DNA of 48,932 nt, taken from contig NZ_CADIJR010000048.1 in assembly GCF_902859645.1 (NCBI RefSeq), positions 1 through 48,932 on the forward strand. Direction: 5' to 3'. Positions 7,853 through 28,316 of this stretch are shown here, one piece after another; within the stretch, counting starts at the first letter, position 1; each line of letters opens with the position of its first letter. The notes beneath the pieces were generated by a model. The model ran no database searches and was not told where the DNA came from. It saw nothing but the letters and a program-made list of their open reading frames with translations. The translations under genes were made by a program, and so were the position numbers. The DNA comes from Achromobacter insuavis (GTDB taxonomy: Bacteria > Pseudomonadota > Gammaproteobacteria > Burkholderiales > Burkholderiaceae_B).

Positions 7853-8566
7853 ATGCCGCACAAACCGCTCGCCATCCTGCAAATGGGCCGTCCGCCCGAA
7901 GACCTGCGCGCCACCCACGGCGAACAGGCCGACTGGGTCGCCGCCGCCCTGGACGGCATCGACGTCCCCCTGACGGTCCTGCATCCCGCCGCCAGAGACG
8001 CGCTGCCCGACCCCGCCTCGCTGCGCGGCGCGGTGCTGACCGGCTCCTGGTCCATGGTCACCGATCGCGAGCCATGGAGCGAACGCACCGCGCAATGGCT
8101 GCGCGACGCCATGGCCGCGCAGTTGCCGCTGCTGGGCATCTGCTATGGCCATCAGCTGATGGCGCACGCGTTCGGCGGCGTGGTCGACTATCACCCGCGC
8201 GGCCGCGAAATCGGCCTGCATACGGTTCAGCGCCTGCCCGCCGCGGCCGCCGATCCGCTGCTGGCGAGCCTGCCCGACCGTTTCCTGGCCCACCTGACGC
8301 ACGAGCAGAGCGTGCTGCAGCCGCCCGCCACCGCGACGGTGCTGGCCGGCACGGCGCACGATCCGCATCAGGTGCTGCGCTACGGCCCGCGCGCGCTGTC
8401 GGTGCAGTTCCACCCCGAATTCACCGCCGGCCTGATGGACGCCTGCCTGGCGCGGCGCCAGGGCCTGCTCGCGGCGGACGGCCATGACGTCGCCGCGCTG
8501 CGCGCCGCCCTGGCGCCCACCCCGCACGCCCAATCGATCCTGCGCGGCTTCGCGGCGGCATGCTGA
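7853..8566 (+). CDS. Class I glutamine amidotransferase-like protein
   Basis: This protein (237 residues from ATG 7853) has the class I glutamine amidotransferase fold (PF00117). The nucleophile is Cys97 in LLGICYGHQLMAHAFGG, and the His187/Glu189 pair lies in SVQFHPEF. It matches the stand-alone YfeJ/GMP-synthase-like group, which releases ammonia from glutamine or hydrolyses related gamma-glutamyl compounds; the acceptor is unknown. Starts at TTG 7781, ATG 7784 or ATG 7808 are also open; 7853 is preferred because family homology starts at KPLAILQMG. No strong ribosome site precedes any of them. Its stop overlaps the start of the next gene (ATGCTGA), so the two are translationally linked. 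Confidence 0.8.
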   Translation: MPHKPLAILQMGRPPEDLRATHGEQADWVAAALDGIDVPLTVLHPAARDALPDPASLRGAVLTGSWSMVTDREPWSERTAQWLRDAMAAQLPLLGICYGHQLMAHAFGGVVDYHPRGREIGLHTVQRLPAAAADPLLASLPDRFLAHLTHEQSVLQPPATATVLAGTAHDPHQVLRYGPRALSVQFHPEFTAGLMDACLARRQGLLAADGHDVAALRAALAPTPHAQSILRGFAAAC

Positions 8567-18444: not shown

Positions 18445-18461
18445 CTTAACGAGATCTTGAG
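18445..18461 (+). promoter_or_regulatory. Direct-repeat box upstream of the TonB receptor
   Basis: CTTAAC-GAGAT-CTTGAG is two six-base half-sites in direct repeat, 11 bases apart (one helical turn). It has the form expected for an OmpR/PmrA-like response regulator. The same arrangement recurs at 22932-22948. It ends 57 bases before the receptor start. The regulator encoded at 22142-22825 is the natural candidate. Confidence 0.62.
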
Positions 18462-18476: not shown

Positions 18477-18497
18477 ATCGCTAACGATTCTCATTGG
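18477..18497 (+). promoter_or_regulatory. Candidate Fur box upstream of the TonB receptor
   Basis: The segment contains ATTCTCATT (18487-18495), the same nine bases found in the presumed Fur sites before alcR and fauA. The left half (AATCGCTAACG) matches the Fur consensus poorly, so the site may be weak. Confidence 0.45.
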
Positions 18498-18518
18498 CAC
18501 TTTTCCTGGAACCCGATC

Positions 18519-20852
18519 ATGGCGCAGTACAAACCCTCTCATCCCGGCGCGATGGCGCTCAAGACCCTGGGCGTGGCGCTTGGCGCCGCCGCCAGCGCGC
18601 AGGCGCAACCCGCCAACGACAACGCCACGGTGCTGGCGCCGGTGACGGTGCAGGCCGACAGCCCCGCGCCCTACAAGGCGGAACGGGTGCAATCCGGCAA
18701 GTTCACCGAGCCGCTCCTGAACACCCCGCAGAGCATCACCGTGGTGCCCCGCGAGGTGCTGGAGGAACAACAGGCCCAGAGCCTGCAGGACGTGCTGCGC
18801 AACGTTCCCGGCATCACCTTCAGCTCCGGCGAGGGCAACCTGGGCTGGGGCGACATGTTCACCATCCGCGGCTTCTCGGCGGAACAGAGCATCACCGTCG
18901 ACGGCATCCGCGACGCCGGCATGTCCAGCCGCACCGACATCTTCAACCTGGAGCGCGCCGAGGTCTTCAAGGGCACCGGCTCGATCGAGTCCGGCGTCTC
19001 CGCGGTCGGCGGCAGCGTCAACCTGGTCAGCAAGGAAGCCCGGCTGGGCTCGTTCTACAAGGCGTCCGGCGGCCTGGGCACCGACCACTACCGCCGCATC
19101 ACGGCCGACCTGAACCAGGAACTGACCGACAGCTCGGCGCTGCGCATCAATCTGATGCGCCACCACAACGGCGTGGCCGAGCGCGACGTGACCGAGTTCG
19201 ACCGCTCCGGCATGGCGGCCTCGCTGGCGATGGGGCTGGGCACGCCCACCCGCGTCACCCTGAACTACCTGCACCAGGAAGACAACAACATTCCCGACGG
19301 CGGCGTGCCGATCCAGCGCGGCACCGGCGGCCAGCGCATGCCGAACGTGTCGCGCAACGCCTGGTACGGCGATCCGTCGCTGTACACCGAACAGACCCGC
19401 ACCGACCAGGCCACCCTGAAGGCGGAACACGATTTCAACGACCGCGTGCGCCTGTCCAACATCAGCCGCTGGGAACAGACCGACCGCATCGGCGTGCTGT
19501 CGCCGGCGCGCCTGAACAGCACCTCGCGCACCTCCTACGGCTACGCCGGCGCCGGACCGCTGGTCAACAGCGCTGACGGCATCCCCTCGTACAGCGGCTA
19601 TGTGCCGCTGGACAACCCCAGCCCCTACGGCCAGCTGCGCGGCAACGACTTCGGCACCTCCAAGCGCTACACCATCCTGGCCAACCAGACCAACCTGAGC
19701 CTGGATTTCCAGACCGGCGCCATCAAGCACCAGCTGGTGACCGGCGTGGAGTTCTACAAGGAGACCTACGGCGACCACGAACGCACCATCAAGGCGCCGT
19801 CGACCAACCCGACCTTCGACCTGCGCAACAACGGCGGCGTCGACATGGGCGGGGTCGACACGGTCAAGGGCGCCGACGGCAACCGCGCCGAGGTCTTCAA
19901 CACCGGCCTGTACGTGGGCGACACGCTGACGCTGACGCCGCAATGGCTGCTGCAGGGCGCGCTGCGCTATGACCGGTTCCGCGTCACGCAGGTCACCGGC
20001 TCCGCCGGCAAGCACAGCACCAACCGGGTCGAGGACGGCGCCTGGAGCGGCCGCCTGGGCGTGACCTACAAGCCGGCGCCCGAAGCCAGCCTCTACGCCG
20101 CCTACAGCCAGGCCGCGCAGCCATCCGCGCTGGGCGCCTCGACCAACAACAACATCTACGGCGCCACCGGCGGCGACAGCTACAAGCCGGCGGTGTCCAA
20201 GACCTACGAGCTGGGCGGCAAGTGGGACCTGGCCCAGGGCGACCTGTCGCTGACCGGCGCGGTGTTCCGCACCGAGCTGTCCGACTCCTGGGAGTATGGC
20301 GACGACGCCACCGACGTGGTGCGCGCGCTGCCCGCCAAGCGGGTCGACGGCATCGAACTGGGGCTGGCCGGCAACCTCACCCCGCGCTGGTCGGCCTTCG
20401 CCGGCGTCAGCGCCATGAAGAGCCGCATCACCAAGGGCGCCAACAGCGGCGAGGAAGCCAAGAACGTGCCCGACCTGACGTTCAACCTGTGGACCACCTA
20501 TGCCGCCACCGACAAGCTGTCGCTGAGCTACGGCGCGCAATACGTGGGCAAGCGGCGCTACACCGACAACAAGTACGTGGGCGGCAAGAACAACAACAGT
20601 TCCACCGTGTCGGGCCCGTCCGGCACCCATCCCATCTGGGTGCGCGACGACGAGAAGGCGCCGTCCTACTGGCTGCACTCGGTCGCCGCGCGCTACCGCG
20701 TCGACAAGTCGCTGACCCTGGGCATGAACGTGGAGAACCTGTTCAACAAGTTCTACTACAGCCGCGTCGGCGCCTCGCTCGACGGCTTCCAGCTCTATGG
20801 CGTGCCGGGCGCGGGCCGCACCGTGACCTTCACGGCCGACCTGGCGTTCTGA
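18519..20852 (+). CDS. TonB-dependent siderophore receptor
   Basis: This 777-residue outer-membrane receptor has an N-terminal export signal ending near ASAQAQ and a TonB-box-like stretch (VLAPVTVQAD). The plug domain (about 60-175) has NTPQSITVVPREVLEEQQAQSLQDVLRNVPGI, FTIRGF and FNLERAEVFKGTGSIESGVSAVGGSVNLVSKEA, and a 22-strand-type barrel ends in the terminal Phe (TFTADLAF). The plug resembles the BfrD/Fiu/PfeA-like catecholate receptor group of the siderophore family, but the ligand is unproven. A response-regulator-type box and a Fur-like site lie upstream, and the two-component genes are encoded convergently just after it. The last 23 bases overlap the histidine kinase gene on the opposite strand. 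Confidence 0.92.
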   Translation: MAQYKPSHPGAMALKTLGVALGAAASAQAQPANDNATVLAPVTVQADSPAPYKAERVQSGKFTEPLLNTPQSITVVPREVLEEQQAQSLQDVLRNVPGITFSSGEGNLGWGDMFTIRGFSAEQSITVDGIRDAGMSSRTDIFNLERAEVFKGTGSIESGVSAVGGSVNLVSKEARLGSFYKASGGLGTDHYRRITADLNQELTDSSALRINLMRHHNGVAERDVTEFDRSGMAASLAMGLGTPTRVTLNYLHQEDNNIPDGGVPIQRGTGGQRMPNVSRNAWYGDPSLYTEQTRTDQATLKAEHDFNDRVRLSNISRWEQTDRIGVLSPARLNSTSRTSYGYAGAGPLVNSADGIPSYSGYVPLDNPSPYGQLRGNDFGTSKRYTILANQTNLSLDFQTGAIKHQLVTGVEFYKETYGDHERTIKAPSTNPTFDLRNNGGVDMGGVDTVKGADGNRAEVFNTGLYVGDTLTLTPQWLLQGALRYDRFRVTQVTGSAGKHSTNRVEDGAWSGRLGVTYKPAPEASLYAAYSQAAQPSALGASTNNNIYGATGGDSYKPAVSKTYELGGKWDLAQGDLSLTGAVFRTELSDSWEYGDDATDVVRALPAKRVDGIELGLAGNLTPRWSAFAGVSAMKSRITKGANSGEEAKNVPDLTFNLWTTYAATDKLSLSYGAQYVGKRRYTDNKYVGGKNNNSSTVSGPSGTHPIWVRDDEKAPSYWLHSVAARYRVDKSLTLGMNVENLFNKFYYSRVGASLDGFQLYGVPGAGRTVTFTADLAF

Positions 20853-22149
20853 GGTCCACCCGGAACACGCTGCCCTGCCCTGGCGCCGACCGCAGCGAGA
20901 CGCGCCAGCCCTGGTGCTCGCAGATGCGCCGCACCAGGGACAGGCCCAGCCCCAGGTTGCCGGCATCGGGCTGCGCGCCGCGCACGAACGGGCTGAAGAC
21001 GGCTTCCTGCCGTTCCAGCGGGATGCCCGGGCCGTCGTCGGCCACCTGCAGGTAGTCGGGGCCGGCGCTGATTGTGACCCGCGCGCCCGGGCCGGCATAT
21101 TGCAGCGAGTTGCGGATCAGGTTGGACAGCAGCGCGCGCAGCAAGGGCGCGGGAAAACGCGGCGCGTCGGCCTCTCCGGCCGCCGCCGGCGCATCGCCTG
21201 GACCCGCCATGCTCGCCTGCGCCGGCGCTTCGAGCACCAGCGACATGCCACGCCGTTGCGCCATCGCGCTCCAGGCCGCCAACTGTTCGCGCGCCGCGCC
21301 GCCGGCGCTGTCGCGCGCGAACTGGTCGCCGGCATCGCGGCCGCGCGCCAGCATCAGGTAGGTGTCGAGCCGTTCCCCCATGTCGGCCGCGGCCGCGGCG
21401 ATGCGCCGCACGCGGGCGCTGCCGTCGGCGTCCAGGCCGGGCTCGTCCAGCAGCAGCTCGCAGGAGCTGGAAATCACCATCAGCGGCGTGCGCAGTTCAT
21501 GGCCGACGTCGGCCGTGAACAGCTGTTCGCGCCGCAACGCCTGTTCGAGCTGGTTGTAGGTGGCGTCGAAGGCGTCCGCCAGCCGGCCGATCTCGTCCGG
21601 CGGATAGTCCGCCGCCAGGCGGGTCTGGGGCGGCTGGGCGCCGCGCGCCGTGACCTGCGCCGCCAGCCGCGCCAGCGGCCGCAGCATGCGCCGGGTCGCC
21701 AGCGTGCCCAGCACGAACGCCAGCACCAGGCCGCCGGCCAGGCCGCTGACCACGGTCCAGTGCGAAGTGGACTGGTTGCGTTCGTACTCGGTGTAGTCGC
21801 GCAGCAGCATGTAGCGCTGGCCGTCCTTGTCGTCCACCATCACGTGCCAGACGCGGCCGTCGCGCTCGATCTTGTGAAAGCCCGGCGCCAGCCCGCGCAG
21901 CCATTGCGGAAACGCCGCGCCGCCCGGTTCGCCGTGGAAGAACCGGTGCGGCCGGCCCGGGTCGATGCCGGCCAGGAAGTCGCTGCGGACGCGCTCGACC
22001 GCCATGCCCATGTCGATGCGCTGCAGGTGGACTTCGAGCGTGTTCACGCTCCAGATCGAGACCCAGGTCAGCACGCCGCCGACCAGCAGCGCCAGCAGCA
22101 GGTAGGTGCGCACCAGATAGCGCGCCAGCCCGCGCCGCGCGCTACGCAT
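20830..22149 (-). CDS. Sensor histidine kinase of an OmpR-type two-component system
   Basis: This is a 439-residue membrane sensor kinase. Its first transmembrane segment is at about 13-33, followed by a small periplasmic domain (about 34-131, with HRFFHGEPGG and GRVWHVMV), a second segment at about 132-152 and a HAMP region. The phospho-acceptor His217 is in ADVGHELRTP; the ATPase domain has N-box LSNLIRNSLQYA, DDGPGIP and GLGLSLV. The short periplasmic sensor and pairing with a TonB receptor resemble PfeS-type siderophore sensors; a copper or other metal signal is an alternative because of the scattered His residues. It overlaps the response regulator gene by 8 bases, and its 3' end overlaps the receptor gene. 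Confidence 0.9.
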   Translation of the reverse strand: MRSARRGLARYLVRTYLLLALLVGGVLTWVSIWSVNTLEVHLQRIDMGMAVERVRSDFLAGIDPGRPHRFFHGEPGGAAFPQWLRGLAPGFHKIERDGRVWHVMVDDKDGQRYMLLRDYTEYERNQSTSHWTVVSGLAGGLVLAFVLGTLATRRMLRPLARLAAQVTARGAQPPQTRLAADYPPDEIGRLADAFDATYNQLEQALRREQLFTADVGHELRTPLMVISSSCELLLDEPGLDADGSARVRRIAAAAADMGERLDTYLMLARGRDAGDQFARDSAGGAAREQLAAWSAMAQRRGMSLVLEAPAQASMAGPGDAPAAAGEADAPRFPAPLLRALLSNLIRNSLQYAGPGARVTISAGPDYLQVADDGPGIPLERQEAVFSPFVRGAQPDAGNLGLGLSLVRRICEHQGWRVSLRSAPGQGSVFRVDLRTPGRP

Positions 22150-22825
22150 CGTCAACGGCCCGCAACTGGTAGCCGATGCCATGCACGGTGTGCAGCAGCG
22201 GCGTGGCGAACGGCTTGTCCACCACCTGGCGGATCTGGTGGATATGGGTGCGCAGGCTGTCGCTGTCCGGCGGCGAATCGCGCCACAGCGCCTCTTCGAG
22301 CCGGCCGCGGTGCACCACCGCGGGACTGGCGCGCATCAGCAGCATCAGCAGTTGCAGCGGCGACGGCGGCAGCCGCAGCGCCTGCCCGCCGCGCGCCAGC
22401 GCCAGCGTGCCGGTATCCAGCGTCAGGTCGCCGACCCGCAGCACCCGCGCCGCGCCGGCGCCGCTGGCGCGGTGCAGCAGCGCCTTGGCGCGCGCGGCCA
22501 GCTCAGCCAGGGCGAACGGTTTGACCAGGTAGTCGTCGGCGCCGGCGTCGAACCCCGTCAACCGGTTGTCCAGGGTATCGCGCGCGGTCACCATGATGAC
22601 CGGGGTATCGCAGCCGGCCTCGGTGCGCAGCCGCCGGCACAGGTCATAGCCGTCCAGCCGCGGCAGCATCAGGTCCAGCACGATCAGGTCGAAGCCGCCC
22701 TCGGCCGCCATGGCGTAGCCGCGCAGCCCGTCCTCGGCGCAGTCGACGATGTAGCCGCGGCGCGTCAGGTGGTGCGTGATGTTGGCGAGGATATCGGGGT
22801 CGTCTTCGATGACAAGAACGCGCAT
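22142..22825 (-). CDS. OmpR-family response regulator
   Basis: This is a 227-residue regulator with a receiver domain and a C-terminal winged helix. The acidic pocket is E7/D8/D9, the phosphorylated Asp is D51 in LIVLDLMLPRLDG, with T80 and K102 (YLVKPF) as switch residues. The winged helix ends with LLHTVHGIGYQL, as in the PmrA/QseB/TctD subgroup, whose members bind direct repeats one helical turn apart. That is the form of the two CTTAAC-N5-CTTGAR boxes flanking this gene pair. It is the first gene of the two-component operon; the kinase start lies inside its stop region. A Fur-like sequence at 22840-22851 lies just upstream. Confidence 0.93.
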   Translation of the reverse strand: MRVLVIEDDPDILANITHHLTRRGYIVDCAEDGLRGYAMAAEGGFDLIVLDLMLPRLDGYDLCRRLRTEAGCDTPVIMVTARDTLDNRLTGFDAGADDYLVKPFALAELAARAKALLHRASGAGAARVLRVGDLTLDTGTLALARGGQALRLPPSPLQLLMLLMRASPAVVHRGRLEEALWRDSPPDSDSLRTHIHQIRQVVDKPFATPLLHTVHGIGYQLRAVDDA

Positions 22826-22839
22826 GGGGCGGAGCCGGG

Positions 22840-22851
22840 AATGGAAATCAA
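22840..22851 (-). promoter_or_regulatory. Possible Fur-like site upstream of the response regulator
   Basis: AATGGAAATCAA matches 10 of 12 bases of the AATGAAAATCAT core in front of alcA. It starts 15 bases upstream of the regulator start codon. One half only, so the call is tentative. Confidence 0.3.
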
Positions 22852-22931
22852 TCTCAGATTGTAAGCGCGACCGCGATCCGGCCACGCACGCGAACCGTTT
22901 CGCGGCGGGGCCGCCACCGCCTGGCGAGCGT

Positions 22932-22948
22932 CTTAACGAATTCTTGAA
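22932..22948 (+). promoter_or_regulatory. Direct-repeat box upstream of the binding-protein operon
   Basis: CTTAAC-GAATT-CTTGAA repeats the arrangement at 18445-18461, matching 13 of 17 bases overall and 11 of 12 in the half-sites. It lies 91 bases upstream of the binding-protein gene and in the divergent region shared with the response regulator, so it could serve both directions. Confidence 0.62.
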
Positions 22949-23039
22949 CCCCGATGGCGGAGACTGCCTGCCGATAGGAATGGTTCGCGTTACCCGCAAG
23001 CCCGCGGGGCGTGTCGTGGCCACTGGATCGGGATCTCCC

Positions 23040-24161
23040 ATGCGTTTGAAAATCATGTTCCGCGCGGCGCTGGCCGCCACCGCCCTGCTCTGCGCCCTGC
23101 CCGGCGCCCAGGCCCGCCAGGTGACCGACCTGGCCGGCCGCGTCGTCACCGTGCCCGATCATCCGCAGCGGGTGCTGCTGGGCGAAGGCCGCTTCGTCTT
23201 CGCCATGGCGCTGCTGGATCGCGCCGACCCGGTGGCGCGCGTGGTCGGCTGGCAGGGCGAACTCAAGCAGCAGGATCCCTATTCCTGGCAGCAACTGATC
23301 AAGCGCTTCCCCAAGGCGGCCGACGTGCCGCTGATCGGCACCACCTCGGAAGCCAGCGTCAGCCCGGAGAAGATCGTCTCGCTCAAGCCGGACGTGGCCA
23401 TCTTCAGCCTGAGCGGCCATGGCCCGGGCCGCAACAACCCGATGATCGCGTCGCTGCAGCAGGCCGGCATCCCGGTCGTGTTCATCGACTTCCGCCAGCA
23501 TCCGGTCAAGAACACCGTGCCCAGCCTGCGCATCCTGGGCCAGGCGCTCGACCGCCCGGAACAGGCCGAGCGCTACATCGCCTTCTATGAGTCGCACCTG
23601 GCCAAGGTTCGCGAGCTGGTGCAGCCGGTGCCGCAGGCCGAGCGTCCGCGCGCATTCGTCGAGATGCTGGCCGGCGTCTGGCCCGCCTGCTGCCACACCA
23701 CCGGCAACGGCAGTTTCGGCGACCTGCTGGAAGCCGCCGGCGGCGTCAACGTCGCCGCCCCGGTGCTGCCGGGCGCGATCGGCGACGTCAGCATGGAGTT
23801 CCTGCTCAAGGCCCAGCCGCAGGTCTACATCGCCACCGGCAGCCGCTCCGACCCCGGCCGCCCAGGCCTGCTGGTGGGCCCCGGCGCCGCGGCCGAGGTC
23901 TCCGCCGCCAGCCTGTCCACCGTGCTGCAACGCGACGGCATCCGCGACCTGGACGCGGTCAAGCGCGGCCGCGCCTTCGGCATCTGGCACGCGTTCTACA
24001 ACTCGCCCTACAACGTCGCGGCGATCGAAGCGATGGCCAAGTGGCTGTACCCCGTACGCGCCGCCGCGCTGGACCCGGACGCCACGCTGGCCACGCTGTA
24101 CCGCGACTTCCTCGACGTGGACGGCGCCGGCACCTACTGGACCGCACCCTCCGCCCGTTGA
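23040..24161 (+). CDS. Metallophore ABC transporter substrate-binding protein
   Basis: This is a 373-residue periplasmic binding protein of the FecB/BtuF class (PF01497). The signal peptide ends near residue 25 (GAQA-RQVTDLAGR), followed by VPDHPQRVLLGEGR, SVSPEKIVSLKPDVAIFS, and LLEAAGGVNVAAPVLPG. A vicinal Cys pair with His (C217-C218-H219 in WPACCHTTGNGS) could form a disulfide or touch the ligand; I have not seen enough relatives to say. It heads an operon with the FecCD permease, azurin and the ATPase. Ligand unknown: ferric siderophore is the family default, and the azurin neighbour raises a copper-linked alternative. Confidence 0.88.
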   Translation: MRLKIMFRAALAATALLCALPGAQARQVTDLAGRVVTVPDHPQRVLLGEGRFVFAMALLDRADPVARVVGWQGELKQQDPYSWQQLIKRFPKAADVPLIGTTSEASVSPEKIVSLKPDVAIFSLSGHGPGRNNPMIASLQQAGIPVVFIDFRQHPVKNTVPSLRILGQALDRPEQAERYIAFYESHLAKVRELVQPVPQAERPRAFVEMLAGVWPACCHTTGNGSFGDLLEAAGGVNVAAPVLPGAIGDVSMEFLLKAQPQVYIATGSRSDPGRPGLLVGPGAAAEVSAASLSTVLQRDGIRDLDAVKRGRAFGIWHAFYNSPYNVAAIEAMAKWLYPVRAAALDPDATLATLYRDFLDVDGAGTYWTAPSAR

Positions 24162-24181
24162 TGGCAAGCAGGCACGCCATC

Positions 24182-25258
24182 ATGCAGACTTCCGCTACCG
24201 TCCTCGCCGCCGACGGCGTCCTGGACGATCCCGTCGCCCGCTACCATCGCACCCGCCGGCGGCGGCTGGCGCTGGCCCTGGCGCTGGCCGTGGCCATCGC
24301 CATCAGCCTGTTGGCCGACATCGCCACCGGCCCGGCCGGCCTGGCGCCGCTCGACCTGCTGCGCACCCTGCTGCACCCCGACGCCGCCGACGCCGGCACC
24401 CGCGTCATCGTCTGGCAGTTCCGCCTGCCCTACGCCCTGATGGCGCTACTGGTGGGCCTGGCCCTGGGCCTGGGCGGCGCCGAGATGCAGACCATGCTGG
24501 ACAACCCGTTGGCCAGCCCCTATACGCTGGGCGTGTCGGCCGCGGCCGCGTTCGGCGCCTCGCTGGCCATCACGCTGGACTGGCACGTGCCGGCGCTGCC
24601 GCCCGGCATGGTGGTGTCGCTGTCGGCCTTCGCCAGCACCCTGGTGTCGGTGCTGATCCTGGAGCGCGTGGCGCGCTGGCGCGGCGGTTCGACGCTGGGC
24701 GTGGTGCTGTTCGGCATCGCCCTGGTGTATTCGTTCCAGGCGCTGGTCATGCTGCTGCAGTTCATCGCCAGCGAGGAAGCGCTGCAAGGCATCGTGTTCT
24801 GGACCATGGGCAGCCTGGCGCGCGCCACCTGGACCACCGTCGGCGTGATGGCGGCCGCGCTGGCGCTGGCGCTGCCGTTCTCGTTGCGCGACGCCTGGAA
24901 ACTCACCGCCGTGCGCCTGGGCGAGGAACGCGCCGCCAGCTTCGGCATCGACGTCAAGCGCCTGCGCCTGGTGAGCCTGCTGCGGGTCAGCGCGCTGGCG
25001 GCGCTGGCGGTGTCGTTCGTCGGCACCATCGGCTTCGTCGGCCTGGTGGCGCCGCACATCGCCCGCCTGCTGCTGGGCGAGGACCATCGCTACTACCTGC
25101 CCGGCAGCGCGCTGGCCGGCGCCCTGATCCTGTCGCTGGCCTCGGTCGCCTCCAAGACCGTGCTGCCCGGCGCCCTGATCCCGGTCGGCATCGTGACCTC
25201 GCTGGTCGGCATTCCCTTCTTTCTCACCATCGTCATCCGCGCCCTCAAGCGCGGCTGA
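24182..25258 (+). CDS. FecCD-family ABC transporter permease
   Basis: This is a 358-residue inner-membrane permease (PF01032) with about ten hydrophobic segments. Family marks are VIVWQFRLPYALMALLVGLALGLGGAEMQTMLDNPLASPYTLGVSAAAAFG, where the NPLA-P-LGV sequence is diagnostic, then GTIGFVGLVAPHIARLLLGEDHRYYLPGS near the C-terminus. ATG 24182 has an AGCAGG ribosome site; ATG 24161, which overlaps the preceding stop, is an equally open alternative and adds seven residues. Only one permease gene is present, so it would form a homodimer. The next gene, azurin, starts 31 bases after the stop. Confidence 0.9.
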   Translation: MQTSATVLAADGVLDDPVARYHRTRRRRLALALALAVAIAISLLADIATGPAGLAPLDLLRTLLHPDAADAGTRVIVWQFRLPYALMALLVGLALGLGGAEMQTMLDNPLASPYTLGVSAAAAFGASLAITLDWHVPALPPGMVVSLSAFASTLVSVLILERVARWRGGSTLGVVLFGIALVYSFQALVMLLQFIASEEALQGIVFWTMGSLARATWTTVGVMAAALALALPFSLRDAWKLTAVRLGEERAASFGIDVKRLRLVSLLRVSALAALAVSFVGTIGFVGLVAPHIARLLLGEDHRYYLPGSALAGALILSLASVASKTVLPGALIPVGIVTSLVGIPFFLTIVIRALKRG

Positions 25259-25289
25259 CGCCTTTCCCTGTCCCCGGAGACGCCTCCCC

Positions 25290-25745
25290 ATGCAATACCG
25301 TTACCCGCTCGCCCTCGTCGCCCTGCTGGCCACCGGCGCCGCCCACGCCGCCGATCCCGCCTGCAGCATCGACGTCGAAGGCCAGCCCGGCAAGAAGTTC
25401 GCGCCCAACCACATCGTGGTGCCCGCGACCTGCAAGGACTTCACGGTGCGCCTCATCCACACCGGCAAGAACAGCAAGGAAAAGGCCGGCCACAACTGGG
25501 TGCTGACCAAGACCGAGGACATCGACGCGGTCATGGTCGACGGCATCAAGGCCGGCGCGGCGCACGACTTCCTGGCGCCCGGCGACGGCCGCATCCTGGC
25601 CAAGACGCCGATGCTCGGCGGCGGCGAAACCGCCACCGTCACGTTCCCGGTCAGCCGCCTGGCCGCCGGCCAGTCGTACACCTTCTATTGCTCGTTCCCG
25701 GCCCACGCCCAGCACATGCGCGGCACGCTGGCGCTGCAGCCCTGA
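25290..25745 (+). CDS. azu: Azurin (type 1 blue copper protein)
   Basis: This 151-residue precursor has a signal peptide (cleavage near A20/A21). The mature cupredoxin has the azurin disulfide pair C25/C48 (same 23-residue spacing as classical azurin) and all copper ligands: G67 and H68 in GHNWVL, then C134, H139 and M143 in CSFPAHAQHM. Azurin carries electrons in the periplasm, and in Pseudomonas aeruginosa a secreted form has been linked to copper uptake with a TonB receptor. Here the gene sits between the permease and ATPase genes of a metallophore importer, with its own GGAGA ribosome site and a 4-base gap to the ATPase gene, so it is an operon member. This placement is unusual. Confidence 0.92.
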   Translation: MQYRYPLALVALLATGAAHAADPACSIDVEGQPGKKFAPNHIVVPATCKDFTVRLIHTGKNSKEKAGHNWVLTKTEDIDAVMVDGIKAGAAHDFLAPGDGRILAKTPMLGGGETATVTFPVSRLAAGQSYTFYCSFPAHAQHMRGTLALQP

Positions 25746-25749
25746 CGCC

Positions 25750-26574
25750 ATGGCCTCGCTGGAGATCCGCTCGCTGACCGCCGGCTACGGCAACCGCCCG
25801 GTGCTGCGCGGCCTGCGGGCGGCGCCGCTGCCCGAAGGCACGCTGACGGCCCTGCTGGGACCGAACGGCAGCGGCAAATCGACGCTGCTCAAGACGCTGG
25901 CGGGGCTCAATCCCATGCTGGGCGGCGACCTGCGGCTGGACGGCGCGGATTTCGCCGGCCTCTCTCCGGCCCGCCGCGCCGAGCACGCCATGTACATGCC
26001 CCAGGCCCTGCCCAAGGGCGTGCACATGACCGTGCTGGAGTCGGTGCTGGTGGCGGCCCGCTCGGGCCGCGCGCGCCAGGGCGGCGACGCCTTGATGCGC
26101 GAGGCCATGCAGGTGCTGGCCGAACTGGGCATCGGCCATCTCGCCAGCCGCTACCTCGACGAGCTGTCCGGCGGCCAGAAGCAGCTGGCCTCGCTGGCGC
26201 AGGCGCTGGTGCGGCGGCCGCGCCTGCTGCTGCTGGACGAGCCGCTGTCGGCGCTGGACCTGAACTACCAGTTCCACGTCATGGACGTGCTGCGGCGCCA
26301 GACCGTCCGCCACCGGCTCATCACGCTGGTGGTGCTGCACGACCTGAACATCGCGCTGCGCCACGCCGACCATGCGCTGCTGCTGCACGGCGGCGTCCTG
26401 CTGGCCGAAGGCCCGCCGCGGCACGTGGTCACGCCCGATACGCTGCGCCGCGCCTATGGCGTGCTGGCGCGCGTGGAGCGCTGCCCGCAAGGCCAGCCCC
26501 AGGTGCATGTGGACGGGTTGGCCCATCATGGGTTGGCCCATCATGGGCTGGCCCATCATGGGTTGGCCGCCTAG
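25750..26574 (+). CDS. FecE-type ABC transporter ATP-binding protein with His-rich tail
   Basis: This 274-residue ATPase partners the FecCD permease. Walker A is GPNGSGKST (37-45), the Q-loop is in MYMPQALPKGVHMT, the signature is ELSGGQKQLASLAQAL, Walker B is LLLLDEPLSALD, and the switch His is in VVLHDLNIALRHAD. The C-terminus ends in three GLAHH repeats coded by a 15-base tandem repeat, then GLAA-stop; this tail is not part of the nucleotide-binding domain and is unusual in FecE-type proteins. The stop codon shares the palindrome CTAG with the stop of the convergent ilvA gene. Domain assignment is firm; the role of the tail is unknown. Confidence 0.92.
   Translation: MASLEIRSLTAGYGNRPVLRGLRAAPLPEGTLTALLGPNGSGKSTLLKTLAGLNPMLGGDLRLDGADFAGLSPARRAEHAMYMPQALPKGVHMTVLESVLVAARSGRARQGGDALMREAMQVLAELGIGHLASRYLDELSGGQKQLASLAQALVRRPRLLLLDEPLSALDLNYQFHVMDVLRRQTVRHRLITLVVLHDLNIALRHADHALLLHGGVLLAEGPPRHVVTPDTLRRAYGVLARVERCPQGQPQVHVDGLAHHGLAHHGLAHHGLAA
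26515..26568 (+). repeat. 15-base tandem repeat coding GLAHH
   Basis: Three units of GGGTTGGCCCATCAT (26515-26529, 26530-26544, and 26545-26559 with one T-to-C change) are followed by a partial unit, GGGTTGGCC. The unit is a multiple of three, so gain or loss of copies changes the His tail length without a frameshift. Confidence 0.95.
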
Positions 26575-28253: not shown

Positions 28254-28316
28254 TTAACCCACCATTCCAGGAATGATGGTAATAATCAGCGAAATGCGGA
28301 CGGCGCGGGAAGTCAT
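28254..28316 (-). CDS. ilvA leader peptide
   Basis: This is a 20-codon open frame on the minus strand, beginning MTSRAVR and containing ISLIITII, then PGMVG and TAA. Five of its 20 codons are Ile (four packed in IITII), with Leu and two Val besides, as expected for a ribosome-stalling leader sensing branched-chain aminoacyl-tRNA. The Ile codons lie inside a hairpin (ACCATTCC 28261-28268 with GGAATGATGGT 28270-28280) that could compete with the terminator. It is too short for routine gene calling. No ribosome site precedes the ATG. Confidence 0.82.
   Translation of the reverse strand: MTSRAVRISLIITIIPGMVG

Follow-up and report, generated by a model that had tools for sequence, protein, structure and literature searches.

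A divergent azurin encoded within a putative YiuABC-type siderophore importer operon of Achromobacter and its relatives

Azurin is a textbook electron carrier, and its cellular role is still argued over. According to the available portion of a survey of azurin genes, these generally lie outside operons (one of ten selected Proteobacteria carries azurin in a multigene operon), and their neighbors are not shared, except for one regulator pair in two Flavobacteriaceae (PMC8779525). Here, we describe an azurin gene of Achromobacter insuavis that is embedded in an operon for what looks like iron-siderophore uptake. The gene lies on contig NZ_CADIJR010000048.1, and the whole stretch of this contig that was analyzed (48,932 nucleotides) is referred to as the window. 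In the open-access literature searched, an azurin in a siderophore or FecCD operon was not described in titles or abstract openings among the matches listed, nor in the available portions of PMC6769254 and PMC2535785.

Several described systems resemble parts of this locus, as judged from the available portions of the published accounts. YiuABC(R) of Yersinia shares the family and fold of its binding protein with the locus described here and likewise has a single FecCD permease and a single ATPase. Its receptor, YiuR, is also described as dispensable, and in Y. pestis, yiuA is reported to be upregulated when iron is scarce and when fur is mutated (PMC5683015). Neither azurin nor a two-component system is mentioned for YiuABC in that portion, and YiuR is IrgA-like, whereas the receptor of the window is Fiu-like. 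In FtrABCD, a periplasmic cupredoxin (FtrB) is encoded together with an iron importer, and a redox step on iron has been proposed. FtrB oxidized Fe2+ in vitro 3.5 times faster than autoxidation and is a precedent for a cupredoxin that oxidizes Fe(II) in an iron importer (PMC11966278). However, FtrB does not have the His-His-Cys type-1 site, and the permease of that system is of the Ftr1 kind, whereas the window encodes an ATP-binding cassette (ABC) transporter with a FecCD permease. In Pseudomonas aeruginosa, azurin is linked to a TonB receptor (PMC6907878); there, the receptor is OprC, control is by CueR, and azurin is secreted by the type VI secretion system, whereas the receptor of the window falls outside the OprC family. 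PA2911–PA2914 of P. aeruginosa likewise combine a TonB receptor with a siderophore-type ABC importer that perhaps carries a non-iron metal, but they are Zur-controlled, cobalt-pyochelin has been proposed for them, and azurin is not part of their description. PfeRS and PirRS are ligand-sensing kinase systems of siderophore receptors; what the locus shows of such a system is the arrangement of its genes and the repeat common to its two promoters.

The genes and promoter elements of the locus are as follows:

18445..18460, + strand: direct repeat CTTAACGAGATCTTGA, beginning 74 bases 5' of the receptor start codon; predicted response-regulator site
18480..18498, − strand: Fur-like site, 14/19 bases of the E. 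coli consensus
18519..20852, + strand: TonB-dependent siderophore receptor, Fiu-like (NCBIfam scores, PDB matches)
20830..22182, − strand: sensor histidine kinase (HAMP, HisKA and HATPase_c domains)
22142..22825, − strand: OmpR-family response regulator (Response_reg and Trans_reg_C domains)
22837..22855, + strand: Fur-like site adjoining the regulator start, 13/19 bases of the E. coli consensus
22932..22947, + strand: direct repeat CTTAACGAATTCTTGA, beginning 108 bases 5' of the binding-protein start codon
23040..24161, + strand: YiuA-type ferric-siderophore binding protein
24161..25258, + strand: FecCD-type permease (PF01032, 268.4 bits)
25290..25745, + strand: azurin from a divergent subfamily that is bound to this operon; its N-terminus has a signal-like stretch (TIGR02695, 149.4 bits; clade support 100/100)
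25750..26574, + strand: ABC ATPase (PF00005, 97 bits)

All genes of the order claimed by the original prediction (receptor, two-component system on the opposite strand, binding protein, permease, azurin, ATPase) were found in their places. The claimed spacing was also confirmed: azurin is separated from the permease by 31 bases, its stop codon lies 4 bases before the ATPase start, and a GGAG ribosome site ends 10 bases before its ATG.

The azurin passed the NCBIfam model TIGR02695 above the cut-off of 105.1 bits. As predicted, it retains the copper ligands and the disulfide, namely Gly45, His46, Cys112, His117, Met121 and the Cys3/Cys26 pair (residue numbers are anchored by alignment of His46 and Cys112). 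All 25 distinct operon azurins have the type-1 copper ligands and Cys26. Cys3 is present in 20 of these, with the other five rows ending short of it, and in all 40 intact operon rows of another alignment. Because the same genome encodes two ordinary azurins elsewhere, with 44% and 47% identity to the operon azurin, the latter represents a third, divergent azurin of this host. A maximum-likelihood tree was calculated from 65 distinct azurins out of 87 fetched, comprising 25 operon-bound sequences (23 with >60% identity to the azurin of the window, itself included, and 2 from a second family) and 40 others. The operon-bound azurins formed a single clade with 100/100 support, in a tree that is rooted at the midpoint only and for which the tool warned of long branches meeting at this clade.

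The surface around the copper site differs between the two groups. In the azurins studied so far, electrons are exchanged through a hydrophobic patch around His117 (residues 39, 43, 44, 116 and 120), which lies outside the family model. The operon azurins do not have the hydrophobic docking patch of these carriers at positions 39, 43, 44 and 116. Position 44 is Ala in all 25 of them and Met in all 40 others. Position 39 is Asn or Lys in 25/25, compared to Leu, Met, Gln or Ile in the others, and position 116 is Ala or Thr in 25/25, compared to Gly (37/40) or Ala (3/40). Position 43 is Lys, Asn, Glu or Gln in 25/25, most often Lys (22/25), and Lys or Arg occupies position 65 in 21/25; both positions lie near the copper edge. 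Lys41 is not distinctive, being shared by 37/40 of the other azurins; the two second-family azurins have Trp41, with Glu or Gln at position 43. The ratio of nonsynonymous to synonymous substitution rates (dN/dS) between the window and six relatives was 0.10–0.36 for azurin, 0.11–0.37 for the permease and 0.19–0.64 for the ATPase. The low ratio together with the rebuilt docking surface indicates that the operon azurin is constrained and that its partner is probably not that of ordinary azurins.

Operon-type azurin (80%–100% identity) is encoded by 19 of the 43 Achromobacter genomes surveyed, and an orthologue of the binding protein (at least 81% identity) in exactly the same 19 (Fisher p about 1e-12). 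The remaining 24 genomes, one of which is only 57% complete, have neither gene. The order permease-azurin-ATPase was kept in all 19 operon-bearing genomes, so that a search of relatives for azurin between these two genes, proposed with the original prediction, gave a positive answer. This conservation, together with the low azurin dN/dS, argues that the arrangement is not due to chance. The nearest named loci by azurin were those of A. ruhlandii (97%) and A. dolens (96%), in a search that may omit very near records. The wider family was surveyed in 268 genomes (azurin at E ≤ 1e-42, binding protein at E ≤ 1e-95). Azurin was detected in 24 of them; one of these azurins (G190, 50% identity) has no such transport genes nearby, which leaves 23. 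The binding protein was also detected in 24 genomes, which include all of these 23. The four operon genomes outside Achromobacter belong to one genus and comprise Bordetella genomosp. 1, 5 and 12 and G082.

Beyond the family, the binding-protein profile (E ≤ 1e-100) was run against 349 genomes of the order and 398 of the phylum and matched 11 and 10 genomes, respectively, each including that of the window. Without the latter, 16 genomes with 17 loci remained, all of which were fetched. In two of them (G466 and G689, one genus of another family), the binding protein, permease, ATPase and azurin are encoded in this order on the same strand, with azurin 87 and 54 bases 3' of the ATPase. Since azurin lies between permease and ATPase in the window, it has joined, or moved within, the operon in two gene orders. 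A divergent two-component system of a subtype different from that of the window adjoins the transporter in 5 of the 17 loci (L124, L146, L147, L149 and L150), and in L149 a receptor 58% identical to that of the window is encoded directly 5' of the binding protein. YiuA-like genes (~51%) are also present on Burkholderia and Paraburkholderia replicons; in one Paraburkholderia record, a divergent two-component system lies beside the YiuA-like gene, and azurin is not in the annotation, while a Burkholderia record is unannotated in this region. A mobile origin was considered and set aside, as operon-type azurin was not among the 11 plasmid records returned by plasmid searches (best identity 46.3%).

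Some loci of the family are rearranged or damaged. In Bordetella trematum, a broken azurin remnant lies near a kinase-like fragment (L088, ~8001–8222), and the binding protein, permease and ATPase were unmatched within 16 kb; the operon seems to have decayed in this species. In G082 (L070/L090), about 1.2 kb interrupts the match to the permease, and that to the regulator falls into two parts; the reading frames of azurin and the ATPase have stayed open. In A. kerstersii (G012, L082/L093), ~4 kb of other genes, including one for an M24 peptidase, separates the two-component system from the binding-protein operon.

The binding protein belongs to the family of YiuA, whose structure was solved with Fe and DHB-L-Arg-L-Ser, and is 42% identical to it in a structural alignment. 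When mapped by hand on a separate alignment, four of the five ligand-site residues named for YiuA (available portion of PMC5683015) are kept. These include His331 and Tyr334, whereas the basic triad Arg64, Arg165 and Arg223 is incomplete: the first two correspond to R51 and R152, and the third to Leu210. Leu210 and His219 in place of the triad Arg occur at every locus that carries azurin and at five that do not (L066, L147, L149, L150 and L152), and this pattern suggests a separate ligand class.

The receptor exceeded the cut-off of TIGR01783 (270.6 bits, cut-off 223.5). It scored 429.8 bits with the Fiu model NF007349 (cut-off 686), which makes it a relative of Fiu and not Fiu itself, and 20.7 bits with the OprC/NosA copper-receptor model TIGR01778 (cut-off 472.45). 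Its PDB matches were 5nec, 5fok, 5fp1 and Fiu (6bpm); as some of these receptors go by the name PiuA, the receptor of the window may also be called PiuA-like. The YiuA-type binding protein, the Fiu-like receptor far under the copper cut-off and the Fur-like sites at both promoters favor iron-siderophore uptake, and the transporter looks like a system of this kind rather than a copper importer. The receptor that the original prediction made part of the system is present here, but it is not fixed: an orthologue lies at the locus in 10 of the 19 operon-bearing genus genomes (the contig of another, G027, ends before the receptor position), and the receptor was therefore rejected as a constant operon part. 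At four scanned receptor-less loci, the neighbors were a porin (L083), an arginase (L085), an HD protein (L087) and a cyclopropane synthase (L086); the other neighbors scanned at such loci gave no match.

The receptor and transporter-azurin genes are tied together by a direct repeat. The pattern CTTAACGNNNTCTTGA had two zero-mismatch matches in the window, compared to 0.01 expected by shuffling, and CTTAACG-N3-TCTTGA had exactly two exact matches in the 6.8-Mb draft genome, one 5' of the receptor and one 5' of the binding protein. These genes thus form one probable regulon. That one motif marks both promoters, while relatives keep the position of the gene, also upholds the claim that azurin is part of the transport operon. 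With one mismatch, two further matches were found elsewhere in the genome, compared to four for a reversed control pattern. All 11 Achromobacter rows with a receptor orthologue, which stem from 10 distinct genomes, have the core CTTAA-N6-CTTGA 5' of that gene, and 21 of 29 rows have it 5' of the gene for the binding protein; it is absent 5' of the 58% identical receptor of L149. In 22 further genomes, every exact match lay within the operon region. When up to one mismatch was allowed, 66 matches were obtained compared to 95 for the control pattern, and candidate regulator sites elsewhere in these genomes were therefore given no weight. Since the layout of the repeat, with its spacing, fits a PmrA-type response regulator, it is probably the regulator encoded at the locus itself that binds there.

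The regulator scored best with CopR-type (172.1 bits, cut-off 279.2) and PmrA (169.4 bits, cut-off 330) models, and the kinase with a heavy-metal kinase model (105.4 bits, cut-off 292.55). Models of PmrB/PmrA scored nearly as high as those of the CzcS/CopS and CzcR/CopR types, and the pair does not qualify as CzcRS/CopRS (TIGR01386, TIGR01387), although these models score highest. What speaks for a heavy-metal link is that the heavy-metal models come first, far below cut-off and closely followed by PmrB/PmrA. In the presumed periplasmic part of the kinase, His52, His83, His103 and His113 do not vary across an alignment of ten sequences, of which one is azurin-free, and could mark direct metal sensing. 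Control of the operon by Fur is likely. The 14/19 site in the receptor promoter is the best match in the window to the E. coli consensus, one of three 13/19 sites adjoins the regulator start, and 11–14 of 19 bases are matched 5' of receptor orthologues.

Operon membership, conservation, the common promoter motif, the separate azurin clade, the intact copper site and the changed docking surface are all read from the sequences. The interpretation to which we lean, tentatively, is that of a dedicated ferric-siderophore uptake regulon with a recruited azurin as a working part, which would act as a one-electron acceptor and keep the iron or the siderophore usable. This corresponds to the alternative, raised in the original prediction, that azurin fixes the redox state of the metal or ligand brought in, and we favor it with the same reserve. 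In such a regulon, the substrate would be an iron-catecholate or related siderophore, the kinase would sense the siderophore or a metal, the regulator would bind the repeat at both promoters, and azurin would be exported to the periplasm. Oxidized azurin could then accept single electrons beside the binding protein, either from periplasmic Fe(II), released or formed there, or from the siderophore. The iron would stay a ferric chelate, which is the form recognized by the transporter, and azurin would pass the electrons to another redox partner. The opposite direction, with azurin reducing the chelate, is less likely: the potential of azurin, about +0.3 V, is too high for reduction of a ferric catecholate, and oxidation of Fe(II) is favored. 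The more specific version is doubtful. It holds that the azurin subfamily is a true importer component and, at the YiuA-type binding protein or close to it, subjects the iron chelate on its way in to a one-electron step that depends on copper. We regard with equal caution the idea that the locus, viewed as a siderophore importer of the YiuABC type to which an azurin has been dedicated, contains a copper-gated step of ferric-siderophore uptake that we did not find described.

Several observations weigh against this interpretation. A type-1 copper site with closed ligands is built for outer-sphere transfer and not for catalysis. The replacement of YiuA Arg223 by Leu means that the ligand may differ from that of YiuA. 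One family genome (G103) has the regulator, kinase, binding protein, permease and ATPase without azurin, at a locus adjoined by a FhuA/FoxA-like receptor. Azurin was also absent from the fetched stretch in 15 of the 17 YiuABC-type loci outside the family (in the case of L149, an 11-kb contig). Homologous loci mostly lacking azurin, which the original prediction had named as evidence against itself, were thus found in distant relatives only; within the family, 23 of 24 have azurin. No receptor orthologue was found in 8 of the 19 operon genomes within the fetched stretch (~0.7 to several kb past the kinase gene; whole genomes were not searched), so that the outer-membrane step is not fixed. The top models of the kinase and regulator are of heavy-metal type, although below cut-off. 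Eight of 29 rows lack CTTAA-N6-CTTGA at the promoter of the binding-protein gene; these are the rows of two Bordetella, of G103, of three distant loci and of the two second-family loci. Finally, the Fur-like sites agree moderately with the consensus. Two other 13/19 sites occur elsewhere in the window (at 28272 and 43665), and the receptor-side scores were matched in 1%–18% of random 200-base stretches of the same locus (11 genus rows).

Two other explanations are less likely, to about the same degree, and are still serious alternatives. In the first, azurin would be a copper buffer that takes up Cu entering with the siderophore and shields the periplasm or the transporter. Siderophores of the catecholate type are able to bind copper and to reduce it, and a catechol-type ligand is suggested by the relationship to YiuA. 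The intact copper site with a changed docking surface is what would be expected if the protein did not serve to pass electrons to the usual partners, and the heavy-metal models of the two-component system, which score best though below cut-off, fit as well. However, one Cu per azurin makes a poor store, and the promoter signals found were Fur-like sites and a dedicated repeat; copper-responsive sites were not searched for. In the second explanation, azurin would spare iron by replacing haem cytochrome c in respiration under iron starvation and would be in the operon only for common control. The probable Fur control agrees with this, and Lys43 and Lys/Arg65 recall the lysine ring of cytochrome c. 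In contrast, the azurin is tied to one siderophore regulon, by a repeat without another exact genomic match, and is not spread over iron-starvation genes; an ordinary azurin is already present in 19/19 operon genomes, and the second-family azurins have Trp41 and Glu or Gln at position 43.

It is very unlikely that azurin serves copper import by handing the metal to the TonB receptor, as is reported for azurin and OprC of P. aeruginosa. An azurin and a TonB receptor under a common promoter motif, and the precedent itself (PMC6907878), speak for it. However, the receptor falls far short of the copper-model cut-off, the binding protein belongs to the chelate kind, and the azurin operon occurs without a receptor in the searched stretch in 8/19 genomes. 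Furthermore, a separate OprC-type receptor above cut-off is encoded on another contig of the genome (C60, 20036–21445). It covers only model positions 3–474 of 637 and may be cut by the assembly or truncated. OprC-type receptors were found in 26 of 43 genus genomes, 25 over cut-off (the G018 match is in two pieces below it), and are unlinked to the operon, being present in 13/19 genomes with it and 13/24 without it (Fisher p = 0.37). Copper acquisition of this kind, which the original prediction had considered, is therefore not supported. Least probable of all is that azurin is a passenger placed in the operon by chance, since one clade, with its docking patch changed throughout, is kept under purifying selection in two gene orders and two families, even though most related transporter loci outside the family lack it.

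Some features at the 3' end of the operon were also recorded. The ATPase C-terminus (window positions 26515–26568) carries a His-rich tandem repeat of GLAHH units (15-base period, 3.6 copies). It recurs with varying copy number in L007/L072 and L008/L071 and is absent from the L006 ATPase, although the L006 azurin is 99% identical; the ATPases of most other loci terminate near a conserved VHVDGLA. In several relatives, open frames of 310–377 amino acids lie between the ATPase and ilvA and were considered as a candidate conserved gene. Three that were scanned had no Pfam match and one had no NCBIfam match; the candidate was rejected, and the frames may be mere open frames in GC-rich DNA.

The findings describe one azurin subfamily that is bound by its operon and by a two-copy motif to one metal-chelate importer. 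The presence of azurin in a siderophore-importer operon of Achromobacter, some Bordetella and one further genus suggests that copper chemistry is built into iron uptake in these bacteria. If azurin does act on the iron chelate, this would give it a concrete, testable partner and function. It would add a redox step to siderophore import, with a bearing on periplasmic iron release or ferric retention, and, in Achromobacter and Bordetella, would connect the uptake of iron with the supply of copper.

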